Positions 40,589 through 44,406 of a DNA stretch of 60,513 nucleotides are shown in pieces. The DNA is from Bacteroidota bacterium. GTDB lineage: Bacteria; Bacteroidota; Bacteroidia; B-17B0; Aurantibacillaceae. The notes beneath the pieces are model-generated. The model was not told where the DNA came from. It searched no databases and saw nothing but the letters and a program-made list of their open reading frames with translations. The translations under genes and the position numbers were made by a program. How positions within the stretch are numbered: position 1 is the stretch's first letter; every line of letters starts with the position of its first letter. Location of the stretch: contig JANYGK010000032.1 in the NCBI GenBank assembly GCA_025362395.1, positions 1 to 60,513 on the forward strand, read 5' to 3'.

Positions 40589-40798
40589 TTAATTCAAGCT
40601 CTCAACTAGAGCATTGAACTGAAGTGTCTTTGTTTCTATACATTTCATTATTCTTGAAAGTGTTGTCTTTCCAGAATAGTTTCTACCATAAACAATATTT
40701 ACCCTTTTAAAGATATCCTCAGGATTATTTCCGATGCTATTTCGCCACTTATAATCTTTAAAAATGCCAAACTTATCTATATCAATTTTTTGAATCAT
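40589..40798 (-). pseudogene. N-terminal stump of an RloC/PrrC-like AAA ATPase
   Basis: 69 codons only. It begins MIQKIDIDKFGIFKDYKWRN and contains a Walker A motif GRNYSGKTTLSRI (about 38-50), then stops. Full ATPases of this kind (AAA_13, including the anticodon-nuclease RloC) have several hundred residues with a coiled coil and Walker B, all absent here. The gene was probably cut off by a deletion or rearrangement. It lies 100 bp downstream of the PD-(D/E)XK membrane protein. The family name is a judgement from the start and the P-loop context. Confidence 0.6.
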
Positions 40799-40898: not shown

Positions 40899-42074
40899 TT
40901 AATTAGCCACAAGCGTTAAGGCTGATCTTTCCAATTTCATCAAATCTTGCATTGTTGGCGTATAGCTTAATTTAGCATGACTATACTCATAGTTACAAAG
41001 CAAAAGTATCACAGGGCCTTTATCCTTCCATATGTGTGAATACTGCATAATTTGTCCTTTAGCTCGTTGTATGGCACTCGCACTTGTATCACGCTTCATT
41101 TCAATAAGTATAGTATCATTAATAACAATATCTGCACGACCTCTATTCCCGAGTGATTTCTCACCAATTGGCTTTTCCATTTCTATGACTGCTTCGGGCA
41201 TTGACTTTCTGAGATGAGCGAAAAGCTTATCCTGAAACTCATACTCATAATGACAGTTTACAGGTTTCCACCTTTCCATAGCAACTATAAAATCATTAAA
41301 TAAAAGTGATTTGTTCTGCGTGACTATTAATTGTACATGGTCTTTTTGTTGTGTATTTAAAACTAAATCAATATGACTTGAATTATCTATTCTGGCAACT
41401 TCGTTGTGGTATTTTTCACCTATACCTGATTGATTGCCGAACAATTGACGCAACTCATTTTTAATGCGATTTAGAATTTGCGGATTCTTTTTGTATAAAT
41501 ATATAATTATACCTATCCCTATTAAAAGTATTACCCAATAATATGTGTTTGCTGTACGCTCGAAATGACGCATTCCATGACGATCATGACCCGTAAAGTG
41601 TTCAAGAGGTTTTCTTAAAAACACAGAAAGGTTTTGAAATGCCTTCCAAACAAGGGCGATCATCATTGCAAATTTTCCGATTCTGTAAAGCAATTCATCA
41701 GATGAGTTTGTTCTTGTCTCTATCGCTGTATCCTTAATAGTTGCATAATACGTAGCGAGACGAGATTTCGCACGCTTCCATGTCCAGTTGCCTTCGTCAT
41801 CACGCCACGCGCTTATCCATGCGAGACTAACGGTAATTACAAAAGCTAAAAATAATAGAGTAGAAAGATAGGTTAATCTATCATGCGGTACTTCCAAAAA
41901 CCAATCAAGTATCGGCGCTAAGATTAATACAGAAACAATACCCCAACTAAAGTATTGCATTTTACTTCCGTATAAATATCTATCAACTTTATCTATACTG
42001 TCAAAAAAGTTTGTAATTGCTGTACCTGTATATTTTACAGCAGCATCCAACTGATTTGAATGATTTGGTTCCAT
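40899..42074 (-). CDS. membrane protein with C-terminal PD-(D/E)XK nuclease-like domain
   Basis: 391 residues. Four hydrophobic segments lie in the first half (about 42-62, 68-92, 133-153, 177-197). The C-terminal half (about 270-391) is cytoplasmic and has the nuclease-fold signature: GNRGRADIVINDTILIEMKR, with Asp in RADI and Glu-x-Lys in IEMK, then RAKGQIMQYSHIW, and a final strand-like ILLLCNYEY. This is the restriction-endonuclease-like core; membrane-bound forms occur in several defence loci. No methylase is near, so it is not a classical restriction system. Together with the ATPase stump it looks like a damaged or novel defence pair. Not in any named system that I know. Confidence 0.75.
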   Translation of the reverse strand: MEPNHSNQLDAAVKYTGTAITNFFDSIDKVDRYLYGSKMQYFSWGIVSVLILAPILDWFLEVPHDRLTYLSTLLFLAFVITVSLAWISAWRDDEGNWTWKRAKSRLATYYATIKDTAIETRTNSSDELLYRIGKFAMMIALVWKAFQNLSVFLRKPLEHFTGHDRHGMRHFERTANTYYWVILLIGIGIIIYLYKKNPQILNRIKNELRQLFGNQSGIGEKYHNEVARIDNSSHIDLVLNTQQKDHVQLIVTQNKSLLFNDFIVAMERWKPVNCHYEYEFQDKLFAHLRKSMPEAVIEMEKPIGEKSLGNRGRADIVINDTILIEMKRDTSASAIQRAKGQIMQYSHIWKDKGPVILLLCNYEYSHAKLSYTPTMQDLMKLERSALTLVAN

Positions 42075-42555: not shown

Positions 42556-43143
42556 TTAGTTTACTGCAAAGCTGATCACATTACTTTCGTGGCCGCCTTT
42601 GCCGTCTATAAACAGTACTTTGAACCAATACGCACCTGCTGTTAAGTTAGCAATGCTTGTTTTGCTGACGTCGCTGGTACCGCCGTCTTGCCATGTAGCG
42701 TTATCGGTGCTGTACAACCATTTGTAAAGGGTTTTGGCAACTGCCTTTACCTTAAGCATTACGGTCCCCTGTTCGCCTTGGCTTGCCGCAAAACTTGGGA
42801 AGTTTCTTATTCCCACATGTTTAACATCCATACCGGCCAAATGCACAATGGCTTCATCACCGTCGGCTGCTACTTCTACTAAGTGGCCCAACTCCAAAAG
42901 TTGTTGTACGAGGTATTTTTTCTTATCCCGCACGGTATCTTTCTTTTTTAACCCGGCGGCCGCTACTGTATTAGCAGTGGTGTGTAGGTCGGTGGTGGCG
43001 GCCGACACTATAGCCAACTGTGCTACACAGTTGGCGAAGGTTGTTATATTATTATTCATGTTCAACTGATACATGTTTGATCTGTCCAACAGATTCGGCA
43101 CGTTGAGAGTACTCACGTTTACCGCTACTTTTAAAGTTTTCAT
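42556..43143 (-). CDS. hypothetical protein with C-terminal fibronectin type III-like domain
   Basis: 195 residues, no signal peptide. The first 110 residues are mostly helical (alanine-rich, NTVAAAGLKKKDTVRDKKKYLVQQLLELG split by reading). The last 80 look like an FN3 domain: VKAVAKTLYKWLYSTDNATW, then SKTSIANLTAGAYWFKVLFI. Similar proteins are common in Bacteroidota with no assigned role; some are near phage-like or export genes. Function unknown. Confidence 0.75.
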   Translation of the reverse strand: MKTLKVAVNVSTLNVPNLLDRSNMYQLNMNNNITTFANCVAQLAIVSAATTDLHTTANTVAAAGLKKKDTVRDKKKYLVQQLLELGHLVEVAADGDEAIVHLAGMDVKHVGIRNFPSFAASQGEQGTVMLKVKAVAKTLYKWLYSTDNATWQDGGTSDVSKTSIANLTAGAYWFKVLFIDGKGGHESNVISFAVN

Positions 43144-43445
43144 AACCGAAAAATTTAATTGAAATTAAAGTGTTGAAAGCGCTTACTGTTTTTTCTTCTT
43201 ATTTGACCGACTGCGCAATACCGGGAAGGTGTTACCAAAGAAAAGCGATTCAACAGAACCAAATTTGGCACTACTTTTTGGTGTTTACGGATGCAATAGC
43301 ATACTACGGATGTAAGTAGATGTATAAGTATAGGCTGCGTTTTTTGAAGGTGAATTAATATATAGGGCTAAACGTAGGATTTCGCAAATAGTTACATAAA
43401 TCTTTAGTTTAACATGACTTTAACAAACAACACGCATAGCCTGCA

Positions 43446-43823
43446 GTTAAGGTACTATGCGGATATGATATGCTACTATAAGAGTATTGCATGCTACTAT
43501 GTAGGTATGATACATTACTATGCAAGTAGTGTATGTTATTATACGAGCATGGTAAGCTATGATAAGCGTATGATACATTACTATATGAGTGGTGTATACT
43601 TCTATACGAATGTTGTATGCTACAATAAGAGTATCATACGTAACTATAAAAGTAGGGTATGTTAGGATAAGCGTATGGTAAGTTAGGTTGAGAGTATTAC
43701 ATGCTACAATAGGAGTATCATATACTACTTTGCGAGTAAGGTATGCTACAATACGGGTATGATAAGCCGGTATAAAAGTATCGTATGCTACCATACCGGT
43801 ATGGCATACTACTGCAAGAGTAA
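43446..43823. repeat. 21-bp tandem repeat, 17 copies plus a partial one
   Basis: Starting at 43467 the sequence divides into 17 units of exactly 21 bases with no insertion or deletion; a partial copy precedes them. Consensus TATGCTACTATAAGAGTA plus three variable junction bases. Copies differ at many positions but never in length. 21 bases equals seven codons and also two helical turns. A frame on each strand stays open through most of the array. Confidence 0.9.
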
Positions 43824-43863
43824 GCCGGCATAGAGACTGTCCGCTAAAGTGTGTAAGGGTCAT
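43447..43863 (-). CDS. possible heptad-repeat protein encoded by the 21-bp array (doubtful)
   Basis: 138 codons. It repeats a seven-residue unit close to I-V-A-Y-x-T-x, for example VAYDTFI, PAYHTRI, VTYDTLI, IAYHARI. The alternation of beta-branched and aromatic residues could form stacked strands. There is no signal peptide and the start MTLTHFSGQSLCRLTL is not typical. No promoter is clear. A plus-strand frame (43414-43665) is also open, so openness alone is weak proof. The array may instead be non-coding. Confidence 0.3.
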   Translation of the reverse strand: MTLTHFSGQSLCRLTLAVVCHTGMVAYDTFIPAYHTRIVAYLTRKVVYDTPIVACNTLNLTYHTLILTYPTFIVTYDTLIVAYNIRIEVYTTHIVMYHTLIIAYHARIITYTTCIVMYHTYIVACNTLIVAYHIRIVP

Positions 43864-44076: not shown

Positions 44077-44406
44077 ATGCGCACGACAAAAGTAACTAAA
44101 CGAACCCTTCCTAAACGCAAACCGGCAAAAGCTGCTAAGCCCGGTGGCAAAGCTGTAACAAAAAAGGCAAAGGTTAAGCCTCTGTTCACTCTGAAAGGAA
44201 TTCCCGCAAAATATAAAGTGGTATGTAACGTGGTATTAGCGCATGCTACTTCACAAGATGAATGCAACGAGTTATTATTAGCCGGCGTGAATGCTTTTGA
44301 AGCCTTACACGAAACAGAAACTCCTGAAACAGCCGCCAAATTGGAGCTGCAACTCGTTACCAAAGCTATTCTACTTAAAAAAGAAACGTTCAAACCGGCA
44401 ATTTAG
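44077..44406 (+). CDS. small basic-tailed protein of unknown function
   Basis: 109 residues. The first 36 are rich in Lys, Arg, Pro and Ala (VTKRTLPKRKPAKAAKPGGK), like histone-H1- or AlgP-type DNA-binding tails. The rest is a compact helical domain (LAHATSQDECNELLLAGVNA, then AAKLELQLVTKAILLKKETF). DNA or RNA binding is inference from charge. Located between the 21-bp array and a REP-like element. Confidence 0.6.
   Translation: MRTTKVTKRTLPKRKPAKAAKPGGKAVTKKAKVKPLFTLKGIPAKYKVVCNVVLAHATSQDECNELLLAGVNAFEALHETETPETAAKLELQLVTKAILLKKETFKPAI

Follow-up and report, generated by a model that had tools for sequence, protein, structure and literature searches.

A tandem array of 21-bp units was analysed in a 60,513-nt stretch of DNA from a Bacteroidota bacterium (class Bacteroidia, family Aurantibacillaceae; assembly GCA_025362395.1, contig JANYGK010000032.1, positions 1–60,513 of the forward strand), which is referred to below as the window. 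This array represents one half of a two-part chromosomal module, the other half being the gene of a small uncharacterised protein, with an array of 200–500 bp located 5' of a predicted promoter and the gene. The array itself tentatively appears, with a chance put close to, but below, even, to consist of imperfectly palindromic tandem sites, one per two turns of B-DNA, for a candidate homodimeric DNA-binding protein that would occupy one face of the DNA upstream of the promoter. Such an arrangement, which is widespread in bacteria, has apparently not been described. A first-pass annotation, made from the sequence of the window alone, had already regarded the element as undescribed, and no description was found in open-access full texts, a body of literature that does not cover subscription journals and preprints. 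The module comprises the following features:

43446–43823, no strand: non-coding tandem array of 18 units of 21 bp with a plus-strand consensus of about KRTATGCTACTATAMGAGTAT, which is specific to this locus; the period rule and the dyad symmetry come from its relatives
43144–43445, minus strand: leader separating array and gene; paralogs at sister loci can be aligned here where their arrays cannot
43416–43421, minus strand: conserved AAAGTC preceding the predicted promoter
43369–43395, minus strand: predicted promoter GTAAC-N16-CGTTTA (-35 element at 43391–43395, -10 element at 43369–43374), derived from an alignment with the GTAAC-N16/17-CGTTA of sister loci
42556–43143, minus strand: gene of family A, coding for a protein of 195 amino acids (aa), characterised by its homologs, an AlphaFold2 model and a match to fibronectin type III (Fn3) domains
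43447–43863, minus strand: open frame of 138 aa crossing the array, judged not to be a gene

Association of the arrays with small-protein genes

The array in the window is located 302 bp upstream of the ATG of the family A gene, a pairing that the first-pass annotation had missed. The same genome contains six further copies of this gene; searches based on protein similarity gave matches in 12 of 60 related genomes, and a profile search detected the family in 54 of 295 genomes of the class, with up to 12 copies each. Family A loci were collected by protein similarity alone and counted only if at least 250 bp of upstream sequence was available (n = 128), and the 1.2 kb upstream of each gene was tested for arrays with periods of 18–24 bp at a threshold reached by no shuffle. 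An array with a period of 20–22 bp was found upstream of 111 of the 128 genes, whereas control periods of 26–36 bp passed in 8. The threshold was passed by none of 96 tiles of the window and by 9 of 207 tiles in other loci away from the family genes. The arrays have a median length of 345 bp and lie at a median distance of 242 bp before the ATG. A second family (B) was found via a pair of short sequence boxes (see below) at locus G000:C9, which contains an array and boxes together with a different protein of 232 aa without a Pfam match. All 19 testable family B loci carry an array upstream; a relation between the two families is not claimed (hhalign probability 19%).

An unbiased scan covering 800 kb of genome G121 (contig C1), in which any period of 12–89 bp was permitted, yielded 33 repeat loci, and 24 of these had a period of 20–22 bp, including 4 inside long open reading frames (ORFs), some of them collagen-like. 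Among the non-coding repeats, 20 of 25 had a period of 20–22 bp versus 5 of any other period, and 17 of the 20 lay 5' of an ORF of 75 aa or more, at a distance of up to 420 bp. The proteins encoded by the ORFs following the arrays included members of families A and B and of a 404-aa family containing a CarboxypepD_reg domain, as well as a related 336-aa protein and further unnamed proteins. Apart from families A and B, the only domains of array-adjacent proteins that passed the cut-offs were CarboxypepD_reg (in the C-terminal half of the 404-aa family) and DUF4856; a gyrB-like gene and a DUF4856 lipoprotein near arrays of this genome may be bystanders. Unnamed families directly downstream of 21-bp arrays in G121 are found at L276:5818–7029, L285:17698–18909, L283:10903–11910, L284:11747–12418, and L279:16898–17605 (404 aa with CarboxypepD_reg, 336 aa, and 224–236 aa).

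Relatives of family A occur across the Bacteroidia, the named ones being Bacteroidetes metagenome-assembled genomes (MAGs) such as Sediminibacterium. Array-bearing members were also detected in MAGs labelled Methylococcaceae (G326, 17 matches) and Verrucomicrobia (G327), for which binning errors are possible. A phage, plasmid or viral origin of family A was considered and dropped, as no match was obtained in the respective collections. Draft contigs often begin or end within or beside these genes (G166:C38/C49, G318:C20/C33, G134:C5/C55/C63); near-identical copies apparently cause assemblies to break, and the true copy numbers are probably higher than those counted. At one locus (L156, about positions 900–1700, on G000:C35) array, boxes and promoter region are about 80% identical to the paralog on contig C25, but little of the family A gene is left: the homology jumps to the 3' end of the gene, as would be expected if its body had been lost and the array kept.

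Constant period and turnover of the unit sequence

The window array consists of contiguous units in strict register without insertions or deletions (378 = 18 × 21). The first-pass annotation had counted 17 units of exact length; their constant length of 21 bp and their contiguity were confirmed, and the number was corrected to 18. Self-identity of the array is 0.61 at an offset of 21, 0.60 at 42, 0.64 at 63, and 0.63 at 84, and merely 0.15 at offsets of 20 and 22, and Tandem Repeats Finder recovered it with a period of 63/21. Within the unit, A4 is present in all 18 copies and T13 and T19 are present in 17, while some other columns are free. The sequence occurs at one place in the 4.08-Mb genome (all one-mismatch matches to a two-unit pattern fall here). 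With 18–24 bp allowed, all 130 arrays of families A and B have periods between 20.0 and 22.0 bp, 103 of them exactly 21.0 bp; in family A the periods are 20.0 (8 arrays), 20.33 (3), 20.5 (7), 20.67 (3), 20.75 (1), 21.0 (85), 21.5 (1), and 22.0 bp (3). The earlier statement that units never change length thus holds within the window array, whereas the periods of sister arrays, although constant too, take other values (20, 20.33, 20.5, 20.67 or 22 bp). For example, two 22-bp arrays (L087 and L089, G186:C1) are found in a genome that also contains 21-bp arrays, each locus keeping its own period.

These periods also bear on the coding capacity of the arrays. Open frames on both strands had been reported for the window array and are indeed present (on the plus strand at 43414–43665), but they are unremarkable: both strands stay open in 11.7% of column permutations of the window unit, and they are open in 33% of 92 arrays versus 28% in the column-permuted null. 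Since any 21-bp period keeps the frame by arithmetic, the open frames need no special explanation. The first-pass annotation had offered a heptad-repeat peptide kept in frame as one possible reason for the 21-bp period, and at the window locus the period and the two open strands would fit this explanation. However, sister loci have periods of 20, 20.33, 20.5, 20.67 and 22 bp, within-unit conservation lacks a 3-bp rhythm (z = -1.8), open frames are no more frequent than in column-permuted arrays, and the conserved frame and third-position pattern of a coding minisatellite were not found. Because each locus has its own period, an explanation by codons is excluded, and the probability left to a heptad-repeat peptide is negligible.

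No motif common to all arrays was found. Arrays within a genome have almost no consensus in common and are scarcely more similar to each other (z = 0.45) than to arrays of other genomes (z = 0.12); a common consensus tends to occur in array pairs whose proteins are more than about 60% identical. At loci L225 and L228, 165 bp of the distal flank are 86% and the gene side is 77% identical, but the arrays cannot be aligned, and the same holds for L066 and L222, where the flanks match on both sides. At L245 and L247 identity reaches 99% over the last 180 bp of the leader, compared to 62% at synonymous sites and 73% in the arrays. Such patterns are relevant to the main rival explanation, according to which the arrays are satellite-like by-products without a regulatory role that slippage or unequal exchange at these promoters generates and homogenises, their two-turn period reflecting the geometry of the process, e.g., a DNA-wrapping protein or polymerase pausing. 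It is in agreement with the fast turnover of the unit sequence at a maintained period, the little consensus shared by arrays within a genome, and the existence of nearly perfect and therefore recent arrays (L035, 97–98%), but it does not predict the fixed location of the arrays 5' of a small set of protein families from several lineages, nor the dyad symmetry and the helical rhythm of conservation reported below. On balance we regard this explanation as unlikely, though deserving serious attention.

Symmetry and helical rhythm of the units

The consensus units show reverse-complement symmetry with a mean z of 1.85 ± 0.15 relative to a column-permutation null, compared to 0.12 for mirror symmetry and 0.02 and -0.01 for two false complements (Wilcoxon p about 1e-12). 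The mirror and pseudo-complement controls replaced an earlier palindrome test that used column permutation alone and was open to base-run bias. The power of column conservation is raised at periods of 10.5 bp (z = 4.1), 5.25 bp (z = 2.7) and 21 bp. Palindromic units occur in many arrays, and perfect stems are present in some, for example AAGTTCCGCGAACTT of L088. Such units could also form hairpins; each of them would then fold into a stem-loop, either as RNA or as extruded single-stranded DNA, for recognition by the paired protein. This is improbable, as the palindrome arms do not covary between units (0.513 for true pairs vs. 0.518 after shuffling; mean z of 0.24 in a separate covariation test), the arrays of the Chitinophagaceae set described below lie upstream of the inferred promoter, and no Rfam match was obtained in the window. 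The lack of covariation favours two half-sites that a dimer would contact over stems.

The first-pass annotation had further proposed that the array displays one binding site or one bend every two turns. A phased intrinsic DNA bend serving as an upstream activating element would be compatible with the period of two helical turns and with the position upstream of a promoter-like element. In the curvature prediction suggested at that stage, which was run with wedge parameters of the Bolshoy model, the arrays did not exceed column-permuted arrays of the same period (z = 0.14 ± 0.13, n = 92), and the window array was even less curved than its controls. Moreover, GC-rich arrays exist (L079, L088). 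A bend is therefore a very remote explanation, whereas the proposed binding site is supported by the dyad symmetry, the 10.5-bp rhythm, and the period of 20–22 bp over 130 loci.

The family A protein and the predicted promoter region

The family A protein is composed of an N-terminal helical bundle (residues 1–110) and a C-terminal Fn3 domain (residues 116–195), and the AlphaFold2 model of the 195-aa protein has a pLDDT of 94.6. The Fn3 assignment is based on a structural match (Z = 11.9 over 79 residues) and on profile matches to Fn3 domains in the PDB with E-values down to 1e-26. The N-terminal domain alone gave generic helical-bundle matches in the PDB (best Z = 9.7, best Foldseek E-value 1.0); STAT appeared low in its Foldseek list and was not taken as evidence. 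No convincing family was found for the proteins A and B in Pfam, NCBIfam, and PHROGs, and no signal peptide was evident in the 195-aa protein upon inspection by eye, without a predictor. Family A is under purifying selection, with dN/dS values of 0.06–0.32 where dS could be estimated. A conserved third gene of the module was not found, the family A gene being the only neighbour common to the loci.

The promoter-like element in the window resembles, by its sequence, promoters of extracytoplasmic function (ECF) sigma factors. In the Chitinophagaceae set (the family label inferred for the window), the array is followed by two or three ACC(A/G)NTTAT boxes, AAAGTC, GTAAC-N16/17-CGTTATA, a leader with short conserved stretches, and the ATG. 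Box pairs near the promoter-side edge of the array are spaced by 21 bp in 16 of 17 loci (15–27 bp allowed), whereas the control gave 3 matches and none at 21 bp, and this spacing is retained even where the period of the array is 20 or 20.33 bp. Ten exact box pairs (ACCRNTTAY-N12-ACCRNTTAY) exist in genome G000 and, besides array genes, precede ExbB/TolQ-like (L159) and TonB-receptor-like (L163) genes, which suggests a wider regulon.

Three other ORFs lie near the module in the window. On the distal side of the array, a gene on the plus strand (44077–44406) codes for a 109-aa protein that has a strongly basic N-terminus, belongs to no family and is not common to the sister loci. On the minus strand, a 391-aa ORF with hydrophobic stretches (40899–42074) resembles the models of PD-(D/E)XK nucleases and of the MmeI N-terminus weakly and below threshold, and a short ORF (40589–40798) matches just the first approximately 40 of the 713 positions of the AAA_13 model and resembles a truncated ATPase gene.

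Proposed function of the module

According to the binding-site reading, a hypothetical homodimeric DNA-binding protein would bind to each unit, adjacent dimers would share one helix face and bind cooperatively, and the filament that they form would switch or tune the promoter of the neighbouring gene. In some members of the family this filament may be seeded by the conserved ACC(A/G)NTTAT boxes, which lie beside the promoter at exactly 21-bp spacing. Since arrays within a genome have almost no common consensus, each array would need its own binder, and the simplest candidate, at present a guess, is the product of the adjoining gene, which would imply autoregulation. A more far-reaching and rather doubtful possibility is that the modules form a widespread orthogonal class, each of the many small helical-bundle/beta-sandwich proteins of a genome recognising a private palindrome array and forming a locus-specific filament, with fast co-evolution and without cross-reaction between paralogs.

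Several observations weigh against the binding-site reading. The binder is hypothetical, and autoregulation is uncertain because structure searches revealed no recognisable DNA-binding fold in family A (Fn3 and generic helical bundles only) and because family B, with a median pI of 6.7, is near neutral, in contrast to the basic family A (median pI 9.2). Clear symmetry (z > 2) is present in only 47% of the arrays, and in the window array it is modest (z = 2.3, versus 1.6 for mirror symmetry). The ACC boxes are found in 17 of 130 loci, mainly of Chitinophagaceae, and are not recognisable in the window although the promoter-like element is present. Furthermore, 17 of the 128 family A genes have no detectable array, and loci of the same genome are not independent of one another.

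Relation to known repeat systems

The array is not a clustered regularly interspaced short palindromic repeat (CRISPR) locus, as already stated by the first-pass annotation, since its 21-bp units are contiguous, lack spacers, and diverge. Iteron arrays of plasmid replication origins (RepA/pi/RepE type) consist of helically phased direct repeats of about 20–22 bp that are bound by a protein encoded beside them. The arrays described here share the repeat length and the helical phase, but are chromosomal, numerous per genome, different in sequence at each locus, and located 5' of a promoter-like element. A Pfam scan of eight ORFs around the window array revealed no Rep gene, and instead of one conserved sequence per replicon the arrays within a genome have almost no common consensus. 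The sites of LytTR response regulators are 9-bp boxes arranged as direct repeats 21–22 bp apart. In the 16 of 17 loci mentioned above, but not in the window, the ACC(A/G)NTTAT boxes have the same architecture of 9-bp repeats with a 12-bp spacer and equal 21-bp direct spacing; however, only two or three boxes are present, and the array itself lacks a common box. In the omega2-parS system of plasmid pSM19035, contiguous 7-bp heptads upstream of promoters are bound by a ribbon-helix-helix protein, whose cooperative filament serves partition and regulation. Contiguous sites upstream of promoters and, in our proposal, a filament are common to both systems, whereas the units of omega2-parS are 7 bp long, have one conserved sequence, and are plasmid-borne.

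Minisatellites, i.e., variable number tandem repeats (VNTRs), and the cyanobacterial short tandemly repeated repetitive (STRR) sequences are also intergenic tandem repeats with changes in copy number, but the arrays studied here are restricted to periods of 20–22 bp, have dyad-symmetric units, and are tied in their location to specific protein families. Repetitive extragenic palindromes (REPs), their mosaic elements (BIMEs) and REP-associated transposases (RAYTs) do not match either, as the genome contains this array sequence at a single place and no transposase was found among the flanking proteins scanned. STAT- and p53-like transcription factors have an Ig-fold DNA-binding domain, which in STAT follows a helical bundle as the Fn3 domain does in family A, and bind palindromic sites, with tandem sites about two turns apart, but no homology was shown and the bacterial domain is an ordinary Fn3, so that this is an analogy only.

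Taken together, a non-coding feature is tied to several unnamed protein families that reach up to 17 copies per genome and, provided that the MAG bins are correct, extend to at least three phyla. What defines this feature is helical geometry rather than sequence, and it is beyond the reach of ordinary sequence-similarity searches. The pairing with arrays offers the first functional lead for these orphan proteins and raises the question of what reads a two-turn period that has a private sequence at each locus.
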